This document shows, one piece after another, positions 1-33,972 of a DNA stretch of 64,000 nt; position 1 is the first letter of the stretch; every line of letters begins with the position of its first letter. A model generated the notes under the pieces. That model was not told the origin of the DNA and ran no database searches. It saw nothing but the letters and a program-made list of their open reading frames with translations. Both the position numbers and the translations under genes were made by a program. This stretch comes from Tetracentron sinense (lineage: Eukaryota; Streptophyta; Magnoliopsida; Trochodendrales; Trochodendraceae). The stretch covers positions 31,008,052 through 31,072,051 of the forward strand of contig CM026565.1 of assembly GCA_015143295.1 (NCBI GenBank). Reading direction: 5' to 3'.

Positions 1-3000
1 TCATCCATTTATTGAGATGTCTGCTTCAAGTTGAGGACCAGCTCACTGCATGTAATTGGCTCTACTCCATACCCAACAAGACTTGACAGGGTAGGACAGC
101 ATTATTTTCAGAAACTCGGGAGGTTTGCATAATTCCCAATAACACTCAGGACAGTGTCAATCATCCGAAAGGGATGCTTCTGTAATGTACACAATTTTTT
201 TTGTGCACCTGGTTCACATAAAAAAAATTATCTAAAAGACAACAATAGTGGGCTCAGTGGTAACAAAGTTCTTACTGTTGCTGTGCAGCCAAGTCAATAT
301 GCACTTCAGGAGGAGCGAGAGCAGGAGACTCAACAAAGTGAAGATTAGGATCCCTACAACAAACCATGCAAGTTTCAGATGTTAAATATCCTCCACCGCT
401 TTCTGTGGACCAAAAGATAATAATGATCTTATATTACTCCATTACCCTGCGAGTTTCCTGGCAAGGTAGAGGAAAGGCTTCTCAAAATTGTAATTGCTCT
501 TTGCAGAGATCTCATAGTACTGCAGATTCTTCTTCCGATGGAACGTAACCTGCTTTGCCTTCACCTGCCTGTTCTTGACATCAACCTTGTTTCCACAGAG
601 TACAATGGGGATATTTTCACACACCCTGCAATTGCCGGCAAGGAAACATTAATAAACACAGTTTAGTCATCATAGGAGAACATAATTAAAACTGCTACAA
701 AGGCGGAGGAGCAAAGGCATTTTCAAAAATTTATTGGACGCACCGGCAGAGATCCCGGTGCCATGTTGGAACATTCTTGTACGTCAACCGGGCAGTAACG
801 TCAAACATGATGATCGCACATTGCCCATGGATGCTGCACAGAGAAATAGTGAATTTTAGCAAAAGCAACAACGCTTCGAAGAGGCCAAAAGGAAAACCCT
901 CCATAGAGAGAATTATTTTGCAGCATCGATCAGTAAGACAACTAGGCACAGCCCTAATGAATTAAACACGTAAAAAATTAAGACGATACTGATCTCAGTA
1001 AACATTTAAAATTTTCTGAGTTTCTCACAGAACAAGCAAGTCAAAAATCTCAAATCAGAGAGGTTGGTTAAAAGAAATGATCCTGTGTATAACTTCAAAA
1101 GAGACTGAACAAATATGGCTCATCACCAAATAAAAAAGGTCAATGGGGACATTTTAATTTTATGGGGATAATATAATATAAGACTTTTTGCAATTTTTCT
1201 TTCAAGCACCAATCGATATTTCATTGTTAGGTTCTAAAATATTCCATTTTAAAAAATAGGTGTTAAAATTTAAGTTACTCTTATTCTGTTTAATCCCACT
1301 CAAAAATCATAGTTATTACCCCTTATTCTGTTTGAAAATAAAATAGCCCATAAAATTTTAAAATGAACACAAAACTTGCATTATATGGAATGATGTGGTT
1401 GGAATAAACAAAATCCTTGGCTTAGCTTGCAAAGTGATACCTACATCTTATAGATATAACCATCATAGGGTAACAGGAATCATACATTAAGATGAACAAT
1501 GAGGCTTAAAAGCTTATAAATATACAATGTACAATGGATGTATTCATCTCATAAAACATGTGTATTTCTATAAAGCATATGGTTAAATATTAAAAAGTCA
1601 GATAAGCAGCATGGTATCTTTTCATAATTTGGAATCATAGCACAAGATCGGTAACATACATAAAATGAGATCAGAATAGCCAAAATGGATGGCCAGTCAG
1701 TCCATTTATTTTCGTTAGGATAAGGAACAACATATAATAACCATAGAAATGAAGGAAAACACAAGGACCCCTCAAAGCTGGAAATGCCAATCTTCCTAAT
1801 GCAAAGAAGCAGAACTGGAAATTACAGTTGAGACCTAAAAGGCGACATAACAATTCAGAAACCAGATAGCAGTTGAGACCTAATAGGCGAGATAACAATT
1901 CAAAAACCAGAGACTACAGAGCAGTTGAGACATAAAAGCCAAGATAACAATTCAACAACCAGGAAGTCAGGGACACCATCTTGGATAAGAGCAACTTCTG
2001 GCAGAGATCTAAAAGACCAAAAAAGAGATCCCACAACATCCAAGCAGTTCCTCTTGAAGCTTGAAATCGAGCATTGTACACCAGAACCATCTCAAACCCA
2101 CTCAGTCCTACTTGCTACTGGTTTGGTTCTACATTGTATGGGAAATGGACCTTTAGGCATGCTCGTGCAATGCCCCGGTATCCATCCAATGGATTCTTTG
2201 AGAGACATTAGGGGTGATTTGGCACCTTATGAACTAGTCGAGTATACATGGTAAATTGAACACTAACGAAATCGAGAAAGCACATAACTCAACTTCCCAC
2301 GAACCAAAGATTTAAAGATAGAACGAAGTACGCCGACATTAGTCCACTAGGTCAATTAAGGCTAGTGGAGCGAAGGCATGCATGGGCACTAATAGCGATG
2401 GTGACAGGCAGGTTTGGGAGGTTCATAAATGTGGTAGGAGCAGGGATTGGAAATGATGGTTAAACCCAACCCAGGTTCAGGCCAAGGATAAATTCAAGTA
2501 GCCCCGCCCTGCCTATAATTTAAAAGTCTATTTCACCCTTAAATTACCTTAATATCTTATGTATAATATGAAATACCAAACCGACCTGCCCAAACACGCC
2601 CCGACTAGCACTTAACGGGGCAAGACGGGGTACAGGGCTAAAAAGGGTTTTGATAAACGGGGATGGGGTCACCCGCCCTTGGTTTTGGATGGAAACGGGG
2701 TAGGAGTCTTCCCATTAGGGGCCGGATAGGATTGGGGGCACCCCTTGCCCAAACCTGCCCCGTTGTCATCCTTAGGCACTAACCATATTTGATATAGCGG
2801 AATCCTTATGCAAGCATAGTTTTAGAGAGCAATAGTGTATCACTATATCTTGCACGTAGGGTTCCAGGGGTGGAATTATGCAGGGCCAACACAGAACCTA
2901 TGGTATATGCTTCCTCAGCTTCACCATAAGGAAGGAAGAGAGCTGATAAGTTCTCCCCATTGTGGGGATGACAAGCTGCCTCTGTTGACAATTTATCCTT

Positions 3001-6000
3001 TTTTGAAAACAGATTGAAGACGGGAACGTCATCCTTTGGCTACTTCAAGGGGAGTTAGTTCAAGGGTGGCTTGTATTATTCATTAGGAGTTCACAGGATA
3101 GCTCCAACTGGAGAGCATAAGAGGGATCTCCAAGGGGAACAATAGCTATCTAGAGAGCATAAAGTGGGATCCCCAAGGGGAACAAACAATGTCAATTGAG
3201 TTTAGGCCTCGGTGCCTGCCTAATCCTCTACTCAACTTATAGATTTCTTATGTAAATCACCAAATTCTTAAGACAACTTTGAAGAAGCTAAAATAAAATT
3301 CCTACACTTTCTAGGATTTCTTCCATCGTCTTCATGAACTCCTAGAAGGCTCTCTTCAGCTCCTTGTTCTAAGATCCTTCAAAACCGGGAGCGGAGAAGA
3401 AACAAACATAGAGGGGGAGATGGTTCTTGTGACAGCTAGATGAATACATCATTCTAAGCCCACAAATATAACCACTTGCGAGGATCAAGAAGTCAGCCAT
3501 CAGGGATGTAACATGACTCTAACAGATGAGGGCTTGTCAAATCAAGATTGTCAAAAAGCATGCAGATTATAAGAGGCATTATAAAATTCAAATGTTGGTT
3601 GCACTCTTCCCTAGCAACTATAGAGTGAAAATCAAAACATTAATCAATAGTGAGGAAAATATTTGGTTCTTTCATGTCTTCGAACACCCAGAACAAACAA
3701 TAAGTTTTTCGTTCTCATTAGAAAAAACTAGAATTATGTCAAAGAACAAGACATGACATCAGATTAAGAACTACATAAGAAAAAGGATCGGAGGATGTTG
3801 TGCTCCAGCCATTAAACAAGAGAGCGAATATAGCTTGCTCATGCACAAACACTAGCATAAAAAAAGCTTTATACCCATTTTTGATGCACGCCCTATAGTT
3901 CTACTTTATGAAAATCCCTTTGTTTTCACTTTTCACCAGTTATATCAGATAGGTTAGGTAATAACACATTCACATGGCTACTTAACAGAGAGGGACTAAC
4001 ATTAATTAACTCTTTTTACAGATTAAATAAATCTAGGAGCATAAAGCCATATGAATAGTAGATAGATGGTGAACTACTGACATACAAAAGAAGACCATTA
4101 ACAAAACAATATGGCAGCATCCCGAGGGGAAATATTCCTGAAGTCTATTAACACAGCTTACATGTTAAGTGTAAACTATTTTGAGTAAAGGAGGTTGGTC
4201 GATCAAATGTTGCCCTACACATCCCAAACAATACAGATAATGGCAACTGAATGAGTGATTTGAATGAAAACTATCTCTGATCTCCTGGAGCAAATATATG
4301 GAGTGAATCAAAGTGTGTATGACATCGGAAAACATGCTAAAAATGGAGAAAACAATTATCTCTACTCATCGAAGCAAATGATTTGGAAGCAAATCACAGT
4401 TTTATTTTCCTATTGGTCATGAAAATTTCTACTAAACACGATACAAACATTTTCATATTGGTCACAAGGTTTCTAGTAAAACATTATACATAAACCATAC
4501 CAAGACACTCAGTGTCATACATATAGATAAATACTTGGAAATTGGAACCACAGTAATATGATGAGATATGACCAAATATGAGAAGCAACAAAGTTCGTAA
4601 AATCATACACCATTACACCATCAAGATGTAGCAATATTCCTTGAGCATAGGAACTTTCAATGCCTTTAATCCTGATCTGAAGCCCTTTGACAATATTATT
4701 AAGTGGAGTTGGGTTTATTTTCAACTAGTACTTTCAGCCATCCCAATGCCCTTCGAGCTATGAGACTGTAATAGATGAGCAATCCTGCTCACTATGGGAA
4801 AACATTTCTTACTGTGAAGGCACTAGGTTTGTATTGTCTATAGAGCTATTGTCCTCTTCTGGAAAAGAAAAGCAAGAAGTTATTTATTTCCTTTTTCCCT
4901 AATGCAATCTGTTAGATTCATACAGTATAGCACACAAACACAAAAGCATATATACAACTCGTAGGCCTGAAATGTACAGCTGCCAATTTGTCATAAGAAC
5001 CAAATTACAGGAAGGGTGTTATATATCAATATCATATTTGGGGGGGGGAGAGAAAATTGCACAATGCTACAATCTTTTCTTTTGATGTTCAACGAAAAAT
5101 GAAAGTAAGCACATCGAGATATTAAACAAGAACTTCAATCCAAGATTCTATATTATCATGACCATATTTGCATGGCATCTAAATAATCAGTTCTTATCAG
5201 TTAGAATACAAGACCTTAAATGTGCAGACTGAACCCAAATAAAGTGCTTTGTTGTGGACAATAATAAGCAAAAGCTAAATCCCAAACAACCAAAAAAACA
5301 CTAGCTAAAATTAAGAAATTTTACGACAAGGTTATCAAAACGCTGCCAATAAATTTACTTACTAGTATCCATCTCTAAGACCACCGAATTTCTCTTGCCC
5401 AGCAGTATCCCAACAATAAAATCGTATTTTGCCACAATTTGTGAAGAAATCCAGTGGATGAACTTCCACACCAATGGTCGCTATTTGCATAGAGAGAAAA
5501 TAAATTTATTGCAAAAAGATTTTAAAAAAAAATCATAACAAAAGACAAAACCCACGAAAATGAACATTTTACTGGACACTTACGTTCGTACTTCTTTTCA
5601 AACTCGCCTGTAAGATGCCTCTTCACAAAAGTAGTTTTCCCTGCATTATGCAAACACTTTCAACTCAAACCAAACTACCATACTTGAAGCCAAGAAATGC
5701 TAAAACGTCATTTCCCAATTAACAAGTAGGTGAAGAAATCAAAAACCCTGTAAACTTGTTCCGAACTAATACCCCAATTCCTCAAAACAAAAGGAAATGT
5801 CTTTCTTACATTAGTACATCATAAACAGCTGAAACAACTATTACAAGTACCAAAACAATATCAAAATAAACCATTAGACGAAAGTAGCCAGGAAAAAAAA
5901 TCTACAAATCCCAGATCAACAAACTCAGCAGAAAGGGAAACAAAATGTAATCTTTATAATGATGAAGAGATCAAATCAAAGAAAAACACAACAGACTACT

Positions 6001-6399: not shown

Positions 6400-7168
6400 C
6401 GATCGAGTTATATTTAGTTACGGTATATCGCGGATCACCATATTAAAGTACTTGAGGTTTCATGTACCGTTAATTGTGATTTAGAGTCACATCAGCCCAG
6501 TCATGTCTGATCCGAGAATCACACCTCTCATCTCTGATTCCAGGATCAGAACTCATCAGTTGCTTGTTTGACCCATATTGGAGATAGACCCTCAGGCCTC
6601 AACTGTAGCCCACATGCCTTTTTTAATTAATCCTTAAGGCCTGTAACCGAACCCAAGGATCTGGAAAAAGGGCGGGAAAATTGATGGGTTGGGCCGAAAA
6701 TTGCCACCCTTCATTTGGGCTTTAATTCTTGCTTGCAATATTGGAATTCGTCTGGCGACGTCTGGCTTCCATCCTACATGTCAACACATGTCCTACTTGA
6801 CACCACTTAACTGGGGTTATGGTTCACTAACCCTTAGGGTGGGTATGGATTTATGGAATTGGAGGATGAAATTATCAATTCCTCTATTGAATTCAAATCC
6901 ACGTAACCTTGGTTTTTAGAAAAAAAAAAGTTTAAAAATTTTAATTGCAAAAGTTAAAATTTTATAATCTAGGTTAAAAGGGTAGTTACTATGAGTGGGC
7001 CAAACAGTTTTGGTCTGGCGAGGGCAAGACCAAATCCGATCCCCTATGTAGAGGCCTTTTGTTTGGATACAAGTCAAGGAAATTTTTATATGTTAAAATT
7101 TATCAATGAAGGATAAGTTTTTTTTTATATTTTTAATGTAAATTCTAAAATTTTATAGGGTTTTGGTA
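6400..7168. other. Intergenic, no gene seen
   Basis: AT-rich DNA upstream of the Ran promoter. Short open frames here have no family resemblance and no splice context. No repeat with clear ends was identified. Confidence 0.5.
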
Positions 7169-29020: not shown

Positions 29021-29377
29021 ATTGACTATTGTAATAATTAAATATATTAACACTTCTCTTTATTTTACCATATTTTAACAGGTTAGGAGGCGCGGTTTAG
29101 TTAACACTGTGTTCGGTTTGACGGAATGTAGGTTAGGCTCCGTTTGTTTGCACGTAAAATAGGGGAAAACAAATGAATTCCATGGAAAATGTTATTTTCA
29201 CCTGTTTGTTTGTAAGGAAAATATTTTTCATGGAAATCATTTTCTAGAAAAGAAACACTATCTGAGGAAAATGACTTCCTTTTTAAAAATCGGTAAGTCA
29301 TTTTCCGGAACGATCGGGAAAATCGTCGCGCAAGAGCCAACACCTTTTAAAATCACAAACCCTAGAAATCCCGATGA

Positions 29378-29596
29378 TTTCTCTGGATCAACCATTCGCA
29401 CAGAAAGAATCGATCTGAGATAGTTCTCCATGCTGTCGCCGACCACATCTCCGTCACCGACCTCATCTCCGTTGCCATCGCCGTCGCAGTCGCCTTCCTC
29501 GTCGTCGTCGCCATCGCCATCATCGTTGCCGTCGTCTTCCTCGTTGCCTTCTCTCTCTTCTTCTCTCTGGCATTCACTTCAGAGTCCGATCACAAG
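29378..29596 (+). other. Possible 5' exon of the Harbinger element gene
   Basis: A 73-codon frame with no in-frame ATG runs to the splice-donor-like CACAAG|GTAAAA at 29596/29597. Its second half is strongly hydrophobic (…SVAIAVAVAFLVVVAIAI, then IVAVVFLVAFSLFF) and GC-rich, built on GCC/GTC triplets at 29430-29560. Because an acceptor-like TTTCCTACAG lies just before the Myb ATG at 32496, this could be a leader exon joined to it. It could also be a captured piece of a membrane-protein gene, or chance low-complexity sequence. Confidence 0.35.
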
Positions 29597-29795
29597 GTAA
29601 AACCAATTCAGGGGATGAGGCAGTTGCTAGTAGGCAAAGGAGAGATTCCAATTGATTTCTAGCCATAGAATCACCTACAAAAGCCAAGTGTTTGTTCTTA
29701 ATGAGCTGAAAAAAGGTTGCAGGTTCGAACCTCGGAAGCTTGCATTGCTTAGGCTGCCACCTCCAGTAGAGATAACCCATGTCAGGAGCTCCAAA
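29586..29795 (-). pseudogene. Captured fragment of a TBL/PMR5-type O-acetyltransferase gene
   Basis: The minus-strand translation contains GAPDMGYLYWRWQPKQC, KLPRFEPATFFQLI and AFVGDSMARNQLESLLCL. These match the PMR5N/PC-esterase junction of trichome-birefringence-like proteins, which acetylate wall polysaccharides in the Golgi; GDS is the family's catalytic-serine motif. About 65 of some 400 residues are present. The signal anchor, the upstream cysteine-rich part and the C-terminal DxxH region are absent nearby, so it cannot make an enzyme. It lies within the Harbinger TIRs, so capture by the transposon is the simplest reading. The lower boundary coincides with the donor-like site at 29597. 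Confidence 0.85.
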
Positions 29796-29859
29796 CACAA
29801 AACCCTTAGATTTATTTCATACTCTACTCTCTTTTCTATGCTTTCTCTTAGATTTATTC

Positions 29860-30825
29860 TCTAATCCATAAAAACAAAACCCTTAGATTTATTCTCTATA
29901 TCTTCAGGTTTGTTTTGTGTTAAGTGGTTTGATAAAATTCTGATGTCCCTAGAAACACTTGTGCAGTAGCACATAATGCATAGTATTTGTTTGACAAAAT
30001 GCTTAGAACAGTCATATATTGTGTTATTTGAAGTTCTAAAACAGTGCATACACAATGCATGGGAGATGTTTGATAAAATGTCTAAAGCAGTGGTGTATGG
30101 ATGCCTCATTAATAGGCATTTCCCAATTTAGCTATACTATATATGTTTTTGAAGAACCTGGACCATGGATATACTGTATAAGTTATTTCCTGTAGACATA
30201 AAACTATCAAACAATATTTTTACTCTTATTTATAGGTGTTTGATGAGAGATTATTGTAGTTGGAGAAGTAGGACTTGAGTTTAAGCTCATTAGCGATTTT
30301 CCTGATGGGGTTGATCATAGGACCCCAAATTTTTCCTATTGTGTTGTAACTTCGTTCAAATTTTCTTATGTTTACTGCTAATGACAGATAATATTATCCA
30401 TCAGTTATTTATGGCTTTGAATTAACAACAAACGGGGAATGTGTATGGGATCTGGAATTTGAAGTTATTAGTTTGGTAATGGAAGCACTCCAAAAGCCCC
30501 TGAAAGTTGTATGTAGAGTTTCTAGATATATTAGTTGCTTTTGTTCTCGGGGAGATGTGGGCGTCTAATTCATCAGGTGATATTTAGAGATTAGACACTA
30601 CTAAAACAAGGTGAGCCCCCCAGTCAACGTGTTCTCCTTGTATTCAATGTGCCGGCCTGATTGAGCAATCTAAAAAAAAGTAGACATGTTTCTGAGTAGT
30701 CCTTTCAAGTTGTTTTTTTCTTCTATGGTTCTTAATGGTTATCATGCAGGCTCTAATCAACTAAGCTAATTATGCAGGCACTGCATTTATATATCTGGTG
30801 AATTGAAAGAAGAGGGTGTGATGAA
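29860..30825. other. Harbinger interior, no recognised coding
   Basis: AT-rich interior of the transposon. The phrase AAAACCCTTAGATTTATT occurs twice (about 29799 and 29876), with a part-copy at 29848, so there is a local direct repeat at the edge of the TBL piece. TGTTTGA(C/T)AAAATG phrases recur at 29989, 30068 and nearby. No transposase-like frame was seen. Confidence 0.5.
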
Positions 30826-30828
30826 GCC

Positions 30829-30960
30829 ATGAAGGGTCATGAGTCTCGTTCAACGTCTTCATGTGCAGCTTGCAAGCTCTTGAAGAGGAGATGCTCTTCC
30901 AATTGTATCTTTTTGACCTATTATGCATTATCAAAATTATATCAAGTACTTATGATCTAA
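30829..30960 (+). pseudogene. LOB-domain (LBD/AS2-like) N-terminal fragment
   Basis: Frame MKGHESRSTSSCAACKLL, then KRRCSSNCIF and LTYYALSKLYQV, ending at TAA 30958. The spacing C-x2-C-x6-C-x3-C (residues 12, 15, 22, 26) is the LOB zinc-finger-like motif of plant LATERAL ORGAN BOUNDARIES DOMAIN transcription factors. After NCIF the usual (A/S)PYF and GAS block is absent or decayed, so it is not a complete domain. It lies inside the Harbinger TIRs. The frame at 31666-31935 may be the C-terminal remainder of the same source gene, but I cannot show that. Confidence 0.75.
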
Positions 30961-31665
30961 TAGATATCATTGAATGCGCTTTGAAGCAGAATTTGCTAAC
31001 CAAATTTAGAGCAGGGTTTCATTATGCACTCTGGATTCATTTATTTATTTTGTAAAGTAACTCTGTAGTAAGAACATATGACGTTTGTTTTCTATTTTTG
31101 TCATTCGAACATAATTTGTCAGAGTTGGTCTAATGGTATGAATTATATGTTCTCTCCAACTCTTTTAGTATTTACCTTTAATTTAATCTCATCAAAGCCC
31201 ATTTTATAATTCTATCTAGATGCCAATACATGGAAGCATAATAATATAATTCGTTATTTAATTGTATTGTTCATCTTTTTTGCAGTAGCTATATGTTCAG
31301 AATATATACCTCTCTGGTTTTATATCTACTAATCGGTGAAACGAAATGAATTCATATGTTCTCTCCAACTCCTATGATATTTTCCTGAATTTTAATCTCA
31401 ACATGGCACATTTTCTTATTCATATTTATTGTCTAGTAATGGGATGTCGGTGATCACCAATATGAGAGAGAATTTTGCTTTCTACTATGAGAGCACGAGT
31501 TAGGTGGACAGCTAACTTCATGGGAGGAAGGTTCAGAGAAGGATCTTCCAGAGAATTGCCGAATAGAGATCCCAGATCTAGAGCAGTACTATGAAAGAAT
31601 CTTGCTTTCCACTGTGTAAGCATGAAATTTTATAGGAGCAAGGTTCAGAAAATATTATAGATGAT

Positions 31666-31935
31666 ATGCACATGTTGCAAGGCCATGACAGTTATCCGGT
31701 CCAGCTCGACGAAATTGTCTATAGCAACCCACAAGCACAAAGATTAGATTGGCTGGAGTGTTTTTATGGAGTGGACATGGTCAATGCTAGCACTGGGACT
31801 AATTTAGAAGAAAGAAGCAATTGGGATAATACAAGGTCTATGGTTTATCCTCCTATTATCTCCAATTACGAAGGTTTCCAACAAGGGACGCTACAACAAT
31901 GTGGTTTTGAGTCGGGCTACCTCGAGTCGAAATAA
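31666..31935 (+). pseudogene. Unrecognised 89-codon frame, perhaps LBD C-terminal part
   Basis: Starts MHMLQGHDSYPVQLDEIV and ends QCGFESGYLESK. The composition looks protein-like (few rare residues, several Trp/Tyr/Asn), and it sits 0.7 kb after the LOB-domain fragment on the same strand within the transposon. LBD proteins have variable C-terminal regions, so identity cannot be judged by eye. It could be a captured exon. Confidence 0.4.
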
Positions 31936-32014
31936 CTGCACTGTACATGGATGGTGTAATTTTGTACCAGTAGCAAAGGTGGTGTTAGATTCCCAGAAAA
32001 CCCCAAATAAACTC

Positions 32015-32260
32015 TCAGAGATATGCTTCTTCTTTTGCACTTCCATTTTCATTCTGACTAGTTAGTGTTCTCTCAAATTTATTTGCTCTTGAAGGTTGTT
32101 CGGATAATTCATCAGAATGGTTCATCTCTAGATCTAGAGGTTTCTGTTGGACTAAATTTCCTGTGCTTGATGCTGAACAGGGAATCTTAGGAGCTTGAAA
32201 GCCTAAATATGATAGCATTTGACTGCAACTGGGTTCTATTTCCTTTGTTGACATGAGCAT
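32015..32260 (-). other. Unrecognised 81-codon frame inside the Harbinger element
   Basis: The minus-strand frame starts MLMSTKEIEPSCSQMLSYL and continues through LGFQAPKIPCSAS and NHSDELSEQPSRANKF to a TGA. The residue mix is like a real disordered protein segment. It is opposite in direction to the flanking LBD and Myb frames, so it may be another captured exon. No family is recognised, and chance cannot be excluded. Confidence 0.35.
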
Positions 32261-32495
32261 GACTCATTATAAATATTCTGGAATTACTTATACCTTGTGT
32301 AAGAAGTGCCTACTTCGACACTTGCTACAAAGGCTTTTGCAACTTCCATCCATTAATTGCTTATACCTTGCTTATACCTTGTATATGTAATTTTATATAA
32401 ACACTTATCCATGATGATGAGATGAAATGCATTTTTTGATTCAATGATTTTATTTAGGATATCTTTTACCTCATTTGATTTTATTTCCTACAGAA

Positions 32496-33485
32496 ATGGA
32501 ATCATCAAAAAATCAAGTTGGTGACAAAAGAAAAGAGGGAACAAAAAAGCAATTCAGGTGGACAAAAACTATGGATCGTTTATGCCTGGAAATTCTAGCA
32601 GAAGAGGCAAAAATAGGGAATAAGATCGACAAAACATTTAAGAAGAGTTCTTTCACCCGAGTAGCGAAAGAAGTTAGCGATAAGTTCAATGTGTCTTGTG
32701 GCGTCGGACATGTGGAAAATCACCTTAGAACTACTCGAAACACATGGCGGATTATTCAAGAGGTTCGTAAGGGTAGTGGATTTGGATGGGATGATAATCT
32801 TAAGATGATCACAGCTAGTTCTGTTGTGTACAATGACTACATTAAGGTATGTTATAATATTTCCAAATTTTATATTTAAAATATTATAATATGAACTTAA
32901 CACTTTGTGATTGTAAATCAGACACATCCTAACAATGATCAATACCTAAACAAGAGAATTGAAATGTATGAGGAAATAGCTCTTGTAGTCGGTGAGGATC
33001 AAGCGAAGGGGGATTTTGCCAAATCATATGCCGATGTAGATACAGAATCATCTATTCCTCCTTTTGATAGGAATGAACTGATGGACGATTGTATTGGTCT
33101 TGAAGGGATGGAAGAGCGGACGCATACCGAAAAGCAACAAGTTTCATCGAATAGTACATCATCCAATGTACGACGGTATGGAAAAAGGCTTCGTCGAAGT
33201 GAAGAGATGGAAAATAAAATAGAAATGATGGCGCAACAAATTGGAGAGATGGCTGCTGCAATCAGGGAAATGAATCAAGATAATTTTCCTAAAGAACTCT
33301 TTAAAGAAGTAATGAAAACAGAAGGCTTTGATTCTTCATTACTTATTTCAGCCTTTGATTACTTGTTAGAGCGCCGAGTGATTGGAATTGGATTTTTAGC
33401 CAAGAGTGAAGAGTTTCGCAAGCAGTGGATGCTCAAATTTCAGTCTCAGAGGGAGGGTTTTTCTAGTGGTGATTGTTTGTTTTGA
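32496..33485 (+). CDS. Myb/SANT-like protein of PIF/Harbinger element (ORF1 type)
   Basis: Two exons, 32496-32846 and 32922-33485, joined by a 75-bp GT-AG intron in phase 0, give 304 aa with no damage. The ATG at 32496 is preferred over upstream near-starts because an acceptor-like TTTCCTACAG ends two bases before it, implying a non-coding leader exon. Residues about 20-125 form the Myb_DNA-bind_3 trihelix-like domain: FRWTKTMDRLCLEIL, then HVENHLRTTRNTWRII and the SGFGWDDNLKMITAS block. A charged region, a KRLRRSEEMENKIEMM coiled coil and a conserved C-terminal segment (FDYLLERR…EEFRKQWMLKF) follow. In PIF/Harbinger elements this protein helps the transposase enter the nucleus and bind the ends. 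Host relatives are called L10-interacting or trihelix-like proteins. Its intact frame without a neighbouring transposase is notable. Confidence 0.9.
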
Positions 33486-33972
33486 ATATGTTAATAGTGG
33501 CATGAATTGTTTTGATGATATTCTTTTTAGGGGTTGAACATGTTTGATATAGTTTTTTTACTTTTAGGATGATACAAAAACTTTTTATGGTATGTTTTGT
33601 TATTGGTGAATATAGTGGGTAGGTACCATTTGAATATGCTAATTTTGGACAATATAGATCGAAATTGATGTATGATAATTGATATATGGTTTGAGATATG
33701 TTTGTAAGTTAATATGGATTTTGAGACAGGTTTGTGGGTTTATTGAATTGAGAAATTTATTATGCAATTATTAGAAAGTATATTTTCTCATTGATGAATT
33801 TTCCTCCCAAACAAACACTGGAAAGTAAAATGGAGTCATTTTCCACCTAATTTTCAGTATGGCAACCAAACAGCACAAACAAACTGGAAAACGATTGTTT
33901 TCTTGTAAAACATTTTCTGTGTAAATGATTTTATGCCGTAAAATATTTTACGTGCAAACAAACGGAGCATTA

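Follow-up and report, generated by a model that had tools for sequence, protein, structure and literature searches.

A multi-donor Pack-PIF/Harbinger element in Tetracentron sinense with microhomology at its cargo junctions and cargo in common with its siblings

Pack-PIFs, which carry host gene fragments between PIF/Harbinger ends and lack a transposase, have been described from maize and rice (Gisby and Catoni 2022, PMC8903248); the maize PIF example given there averages 535 bp and has one or two short fragments, of 163 and 58 bp. In grapevine, the Pifvine-3 elements (Benjak et al. 2008, PMC2528002) contain a long extra region that matches host exons and introns and is in some cases common to several copies, and they keep both open reading frame 1 (ORF1) and the transposase. 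Pack-PIFs, and PIFs that combine captured DNA with a transposase, are already published from these two plants, maize and grapevine. Autonomous PIF/Harbinger elements, such as PePIF1, have a TTA or ATA target-site duplication (TSD), a Myb/SANT ORF1, and a transposase (PMC6327408). Here we examined a stretch of 64,000 nucleotides of Tetracentron sinense (GCA_015143295.1, contig CM026565.1, positions 31,008,052 to 31,072,051; hereafter, the window), in which a PIF/Harbinger element of ∼4.8 kb occupies 29136-33969 on the contig here called C15. Like the maize and rice elements described in PMC8903248, it has PIF/Harbinger ends, host fragments, and no transposase, but it is larger (∼4.8 kb), draws on six donor loci, and has kept ORF1. 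It differs from the PePIF1 type, as presented in PMC6327408, in lacking a transposase and in carrying host DNA, while its siblings have both ORF1 and the transposase. The value of this element is that the captures are young and that the capture mechanism can be read base by base.

The element is flanked by TTA on both sides (29133-29135 and 33970-33972). Its left terminal inverted repeat (TIR; 29136-29161, plus strand) is 26 bp long, and 25 of these bases pair with the right TIR (33944-33969, minus strand); 29137-29161 and 33944-33968 are complementary at 25 of 25 positions, the mismatch being confined to the outermost base. The TIR begins GGCTCCGTTTGTTTG, which fits the GG...GTTTG kind of short PIF/Harbinger TIR and resembles those given in PMC6327408 for Harbinger, ZmPIFa, and OsPIF1, and its fourth base deviates from the rice GG(G/C)CC consensus as given in PMC4423477. 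An intact Myb/SANT-like ORF1 lies at 32496-33485 on the plus strand (Pfam Myb_DNA-bind_3, E value of 7.3e-19); it starts with the ATG at 32496 and encodes 304 amino acids in exons 32496-32846 and 32922-33485, whose splice sites are a prediction. No transposase frame was found in the element by alignment to the family transposase. The sequence that the element has in common with its family ends at ∼29607 and restarts at 32244, and between these points 5.4 kb of a transposase-bearing sibling, L024, including its transposase, is absent. The family-specific left end (29136-29607, plus strand) is matched over its whole length or most of it, at 79.9 to 96.0% identity, in 19 of the 20 sibling copies that we fetched, the remaining one being L019, which is 99.4% identical across the full element. 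The family-specific right part (32244-33969, plus strand), with the Myb ORF and the right end, is 98.3% identical to L024. We thus confirm a multi-donor Pack-PIF/Harbinger element with TIRs, a TSD, captured host coding DNA, and no transposase. The original prediction for this locus had named the TIRs (alike at 25 of 26 bases), the TTA on both sides, the intact Myb-like gene, and the missing PIF/Harbinger transposase, and all four hold. It had cited gene capture by such elements as reported in grasses; the grapevine PIFs of PMC2528002 indicate that capture is not confined to them.

The genome (one assembly, 1.16 Gb in 1479 contigs) was searched with each element end, and each search returned at least 40 scored matches. 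We read 21 copies, the window element and 20 that were fetched with paired ends. Identical 3-bp flanks were present in 16 of the 21 (13 with TTA or TAA, 2 with ATA, and 1 with GTA), and the flanks differed in five (L023, L026, L028, L033, and L038). The possibility that the ends are chance matches around a spurious element is ruled out by the number of matches per end and by TSDs that agree in 16 of the 21 copies; as the original prediction had proposed to verify by this search, the siblings show that the two ends belong to one element. Two pairs of copies are non-independent: L020 and L021, in which both flanks match (98% and 95%), and L027 and L028, whose left flanks are identical.

Aligned with one another, the copies reveal three conserved modules: a left end of ∼0.4 to 0.75 kb, a block containing the transposase, and, on the right, a block that includes the Myb ORF. 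Two zones lie between these modules, and their content varies among the copies. The transposase of L024 matched DDE_Tnp_4 (3.5e-23) and Plant_tran (9.2e-15) in Pfam. The predicted transposase could be aligned over 85% or more of its length in 12 copies, five of which have an open frame (L020, L022, L024, L027, and L038); the Myb ORF aligned in 19 copies and is open in eight (the window element, L019, L020, L022, L024, L026, L027, and L028). Both ORFs are open in 4 of the 21 copies (L020, L022, L024, and L027). A query of the genome with the transposase region gave 59 rows, 30 of them longer than 1,000 bp, with the query itself included.

The cargo of the window element amounts to 2.64 kb, all but ∼44 bp of which could be traced, at 94.5 to 99.5% identity, to six loci on five chromosome-scale contigs: a TBL gene, an LBD gene, an R2R3-MYB gene, and three unassigned loci. 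All six lie on contigs other than that of the element, and the pieces range from 15 to 666 bp. Piece A (29600-29786, minus strand) is the interior of a TBL/PMR5 exon and is 98.9% identical to C18:29632746-29632932; the fragment has a PC-Esterase match (1.3e-14), and the donor keeps a long frame (375 amino acids, PC-Esterase 1.5e-90). Piece B is a 24-bp patch (29793-29816) from the donor of piece C, ∼60 bp further along. Piece C (29810-30475, 666 bp) is 99.4% identical to the unassigned locus C18:22175145-22175810 and 98.6% identical to a copy on the small contig C97, and parts of it match other loci at 68 to 87%. Piece D (30471-30676, 206 bp) is 99.0% identical to a transposase-bearing element on C9 and 96.1% identical to C3:668095-668300, which is likely its host donor. 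Piece E (30671-30912, plus strand) comes from an LBD (LOB) gene, of which it covers the upstream region and the first 26 codons (C12:41228749-41229003; 94.5% identity counting one 13-bp gap, with one mismatch); its LOB match is only just above the cutoff (4.8e-5; 24.3 bits versus 24.2), and the donor keeps a frame of 174 amino acids (LOB, 2.8e-38).

Piece F (30907-31652) derives from C16:34158638-34159600 and consists of 30907-30993 (98.9%), a 15-bp patch (30994-31008), and 31037-31652 (99.5%). Between the last two lies a 28-bp filler (31009-31036), which at up to two mismatches is matched in the genome only in the window and L019. Piece G (31663-32246, plus strand) covers the part of an R2R3-MYB gene that encodes the C terminus, together with the 3' flank, and is 99.5% identical to C2:9341473-9342056; the donor carries two Myb_DNA-binding exons, and these Myb repeats are absent from piece G. 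We take the TBL label (PMR5N plus PC-Esterase) and the R2R3-MYB label (the two Myb_DNA-binding exons) from Pfam domains together with characteristic motifs. A source in the genome was sought for 29787-29792, for the 28-bp filler, and for 31653-31662 (44 bp in total), and none was found. Three donors (L055, L056, and L057) gave no Pfam match at an E value of 0.001 in three frames each. The minus-strand TBL/PMR5-like and plus-strand LOB-domain fragments are as the original prediction had described them. Its two unassigned frames can be reduced in part, with 31636-31935 now placed as the C terminus of the MYB gene and the rest staying without assignment, and its several source genes are indeed captured host fragments, although from six donor loci rather than two. 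Piece F also contains a 76-bp imperfect direct repeat (∼80%; 31138-31212 and 31346-31421) that is already present in its donor, L047.

The second copy of this mosaic, L019, lies on contig C12 and aligns to the window element over its full length at 99.4% (15 mismatches and 2 indels in 4,821 aligned bases). It has the same pieces and internal junctions, different flanks, and TAA on both sides. A chimeric assembly is thereby ruled out, as the whole mosaic is repeated at another site, and because that site has its own TAA duplication, the element has moved after it was packed.

The left part of the cargo is present in a third element. L025 (4.5 kb, with an ATA TSD) has lost the Myb ORF, and no transposase frame was found in it in the family alignment. 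It has 29600-30676 of the window (1,077 bp) in common at 99.4%, that is, the TBL piece to piece D but not the LBD piece. These siblings, L024 with the transposase and L025 with only part of the cargo, are of the kinds that the original prediction had suggested seeking. The TBL piece is longer in L025 (265 bp versus 187 bp in the window), and its piece D runs on into the C3 donor at the point where the window switches to LBD. L025 and a transposase-bearing element on C9, in turn, share 964 bp at 99.1%, including the join between piece D and the region before the transposase. The shared junctions thus form a ladder of C9 element, L025, and window element. As read from this ladder, the left 1.08 kb of the window cargo was probably acquired from another packed element, and the simplest order would run from a C9-type element to an L025-type element to the window element. 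The C9 element is one of a pair (C9:21804389-21823623 and C9:21958053-21977103), each ∼19 kb end to end and ∼150 kb apart. The part of the first copy that was read (L054) includes the beginning of the transposase block, piece D, and a fragment of NB-LRR-type LRR sequence (LRR_14, 4.5e-23).

Mosaics of several donors also occur in copies with a transposase. In L027, in which both ORFs are open, zone 2 is composed of pieces from C11, C18 (two pieces), C11, and C2 at 98 to 100% identity, with 411 bp without a source in five gaps between and after the donor pieces, and zone 1 of pieces from C12 (100%), C9 (97%), and C8 (96%; this piece has more matches at 93%). A RING-finger fragment underlies the C9 match in zone 1 (zf-RING_2, 1.1e-6). 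In L022, whose ORFs are likewise both open, pieces from C6, C12, and C4 (96 to 100%) occur together with one further piece that matches no better than 82%, to a relative on C14. L026, with a broken transposase frame and an open Myb ORF, has pieces from C8, C7, C1, C7, and C2 at 98 to 99%. Likenesses to PP2C in L027 and to GDSL lipase in L025, seen by eye, were below the Pfam cutoff (0.037 and 0.21), and searches of the sibling cargo against solved structures gave nothing useful. Across the window element, L022, L025, L026, and L027, 20 of 23 pieces were 97.7 to 100% identical to their donors, once pieces below 30 bp and repeated occurrences of a piece were set aside.

Because L022 and L027 hold multi-donor mosaics while both of their ORFs are open, packing does not depend on transposase loss, and transposase-bearing copies pack as well. 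The original prediction had regarded the retention of Myb with loss of the transposase as an unusual combination; within its own family it is ordinary. We also rejected a special advantage of keeping Myb, as six of the eight open Myb frames sit in transposase-bearing copies. In the eight copies without a detectable transposase (the window element, L019, L025, and L031 to L035), Myb is open only in the window element and L019. Packing by transposase-bearing elements is left out by the definition of Pack-TYPE elements as nonautonomous. The classifier of PMC8903248, as described there, calls an element autonomous if it has a transposase match over 250 bp, so that packing copies such as L027 would go uncounted.

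Cargo in this family sits in, or replaces, the center of the element. One could suppose that the mosaic was built elsewhere, for example by a Helitron or as filler of a chromosomal break, and then landed within Harbinger ends or came to be flanked by them. Helitrons produce similar multi-gene mosaics, and the L022 piece with an arm of another repeat would suit such an origin. However, the cargo replaces the family interior rather than interrupting it (with the 5.4 kb of L024 gone), sibling cargo has other donors within the same flanking modules, and an A-to-G mosaic without Harbinger ends was not among the listed genome matches of the cargo. We therefore consider an outside-built mosaic very improbable.

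We analyzed 32 junctions from nine copies for which both neighbors had been fetched, plus the switch within piece F (30993/30994), for 33 in all. The count excludes the join that contains the 28-bp filler, between the 15-bp patch and the remainder of F, as well as other junctions in L022, L026, and L027 (among them those of cargo zone 1) and junctions in copies with unfetched donors. Sixteen of the 32 junctions are direct, with 2 to 7 bp of exact microhomology (mean, 4.5), and the other 16 have 4 to 169 bp of filler. The switch within F is blunt, and including it would lower the direct-junction mean to 4.2 (17 junctions). Breakpoints placed at random in the same donor pairs averaged 0.73, and the observed mean was reached in 0 of 2,000 simulated sets. 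In the window, the junctions are, in order, 3 bp (8 with a mismatch), filler of 6, 7, 5, 6, 6, blunt, filler of 10, and 3. Two short patches, B (24 bp) and the 15 bp in F, adjoin the main pieces from the same donor. Four of the 32 junctions are internal deletions relative to L024 (L030, L031, L033, and L035, with 7, 4, 4, and 2 bp). The longer fillers, such as the 411 bp of L027 zone 2, may hide pieces that are too diverged or repetitive to find. In animals, Pack-TIRs likewise have template switching, microhomology, and inserted bases (Tan et al. 2021, PMC8277862). Their microhomology has a median of 2 bp and 59.8% are intrachromosomal, according to that account; in contrast, our direct junctions (nine copies) average 4.5 bp, and all six window donors are off-contig.

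These junctions bear on the fusion of neighboring insertions, in which two nearby copies carry off the DNA between them, here over several rounds (Pack-CACTA/Pack-TYPE). Such fusion has been argued for maize Pack-PIFs and other superfamilies (PMC8903248); it likewise predicts internal cargo, and the close pair on C9 would suit it. Against it, the pieces of the window cargo, 15 to 666 bp long, originate from five contigs, and excess microhomology is not predicted. Donors should lie beside insertions, but four exact TIR words were absent from the 20 donor loci checked, of which 14 include only ∼80 bp of flank, and the printed window junctions, viewed by eye, show no element ends. The microhomology, the same-donor patches, the unlinked donors, and the deletions of like kind together favor template switching, and we consider neighbor fusion improbable.

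It is quite likely, judging from these sequences, that the window element is a nonautonomous Pack-PIF/Harbinger element built by repeated template switching. A break, or possibly the gap left by an excision, would have arisen inside a family copy, and repair synthesis would have kept both element ends while switching templates, mostly at microhomologies of 3 to 7 bp, with some switches adding a few filler bases. Synthesis may have passed through an already packed element, the putative source of pieces A to D, then used the LBD gene, the C16 locus, and the R2R3-MYB gene as templates, and then joined up again with the right half of a family copy in which the Myb ORF was retained. The transposase of a sibling could have mobilized the product in trans, giving the copies on C15 and C12.

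The template switching might instead have taken place by fork stalling and template switching (FoSTeS), or while a break that did not stem from excision was repaired, with mobilization at a later time. Either would leave the same junction signature, and FoSTeST has been proposed for multicopy animal Pack-TIRs, alongside gap filling (PMC8277862). On the other side, the internal deletions with this signature fit abortive gap repair, which was suggested for orchid PePIF1 (PMC6327408). We regard this variant as possible but doubtful; it is a subdivision of template switching, and its probability overlaps that of template switching as a whole. Several points weigh against the account of repair by template switching given above. 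Half of the 32 junctions have filler instead of microhomology, and the F switch is blunt; the random-breakpoint null ignores local base bias; two window junctions, J3 (TAAAAA) and J7 (TTT), are of low complexity; and excision repair, replication-fork switching, and a break unrelated to transposition are not separable by these data. Moreover, the case is read from sequence and not from an observed transposition, transcript, or protein.

More broadly, it seems about an even chance that template switching guided by microhomology continually reshapes the interior of the elements of this family, those with both ORFs open among them, and that it takes in both pieces of unlinked host genes and pieces already packed by siblings, with cargo being handed from one element to another. 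If so, unlinked genes would be captured in this plant by a route distinct from the fusion of neighboring insertions. Cargo that is shared between elements, with junctions that bear a template-switching signature, bears on how transposons acquire genes. For Pifvine-3, the account in PMC2528002 includes no multi-donor junction map, microhomology analysis, or passing of cargo in the portions available to us, and PMC8277862 calls the application of its models to plant Pack-MULEs worth exploring. In the open-access literature, which leaves most subscription journals outside, we found neither junction-level template switching in a plant PIF family nor cargo passed between plant PIF elements, which is not proof of absence.

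The ratio pN/pS was 0.29 for Myb in 28 pairs of intact copies (0.43 in all 171 pairs) and 0.40 for the transposase in 10 intact pairs (0.46 in all 66 pairs); the pairs are non-independent and the values uninformative on the window copy alone. The TSDs of L037 (GTA), L025 (ATA), and L035 (ATA) suggest a target choice looser than TTA/TAA. L027 and L028 have identical 300-bp left flanks and different right flanks, as expected of a rearranged duplicate or a chimeric contig. In L022, oriented positions ∼6807-6951 (donor C12:5448495-5448939) include one arm of a foldback-like repeat that has many copies in the genome, often as inverted pairs, so the captured DNA would carry part of another mobile repeat. 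Finally, zone 1 of L024 (oriented 1299-3002) is an interior common to L020, L021, L023, and L024, and partly to L030. It also matches unlinked loci on C20 (97%) and C18 (94%), and so it may also be older captured DNA.

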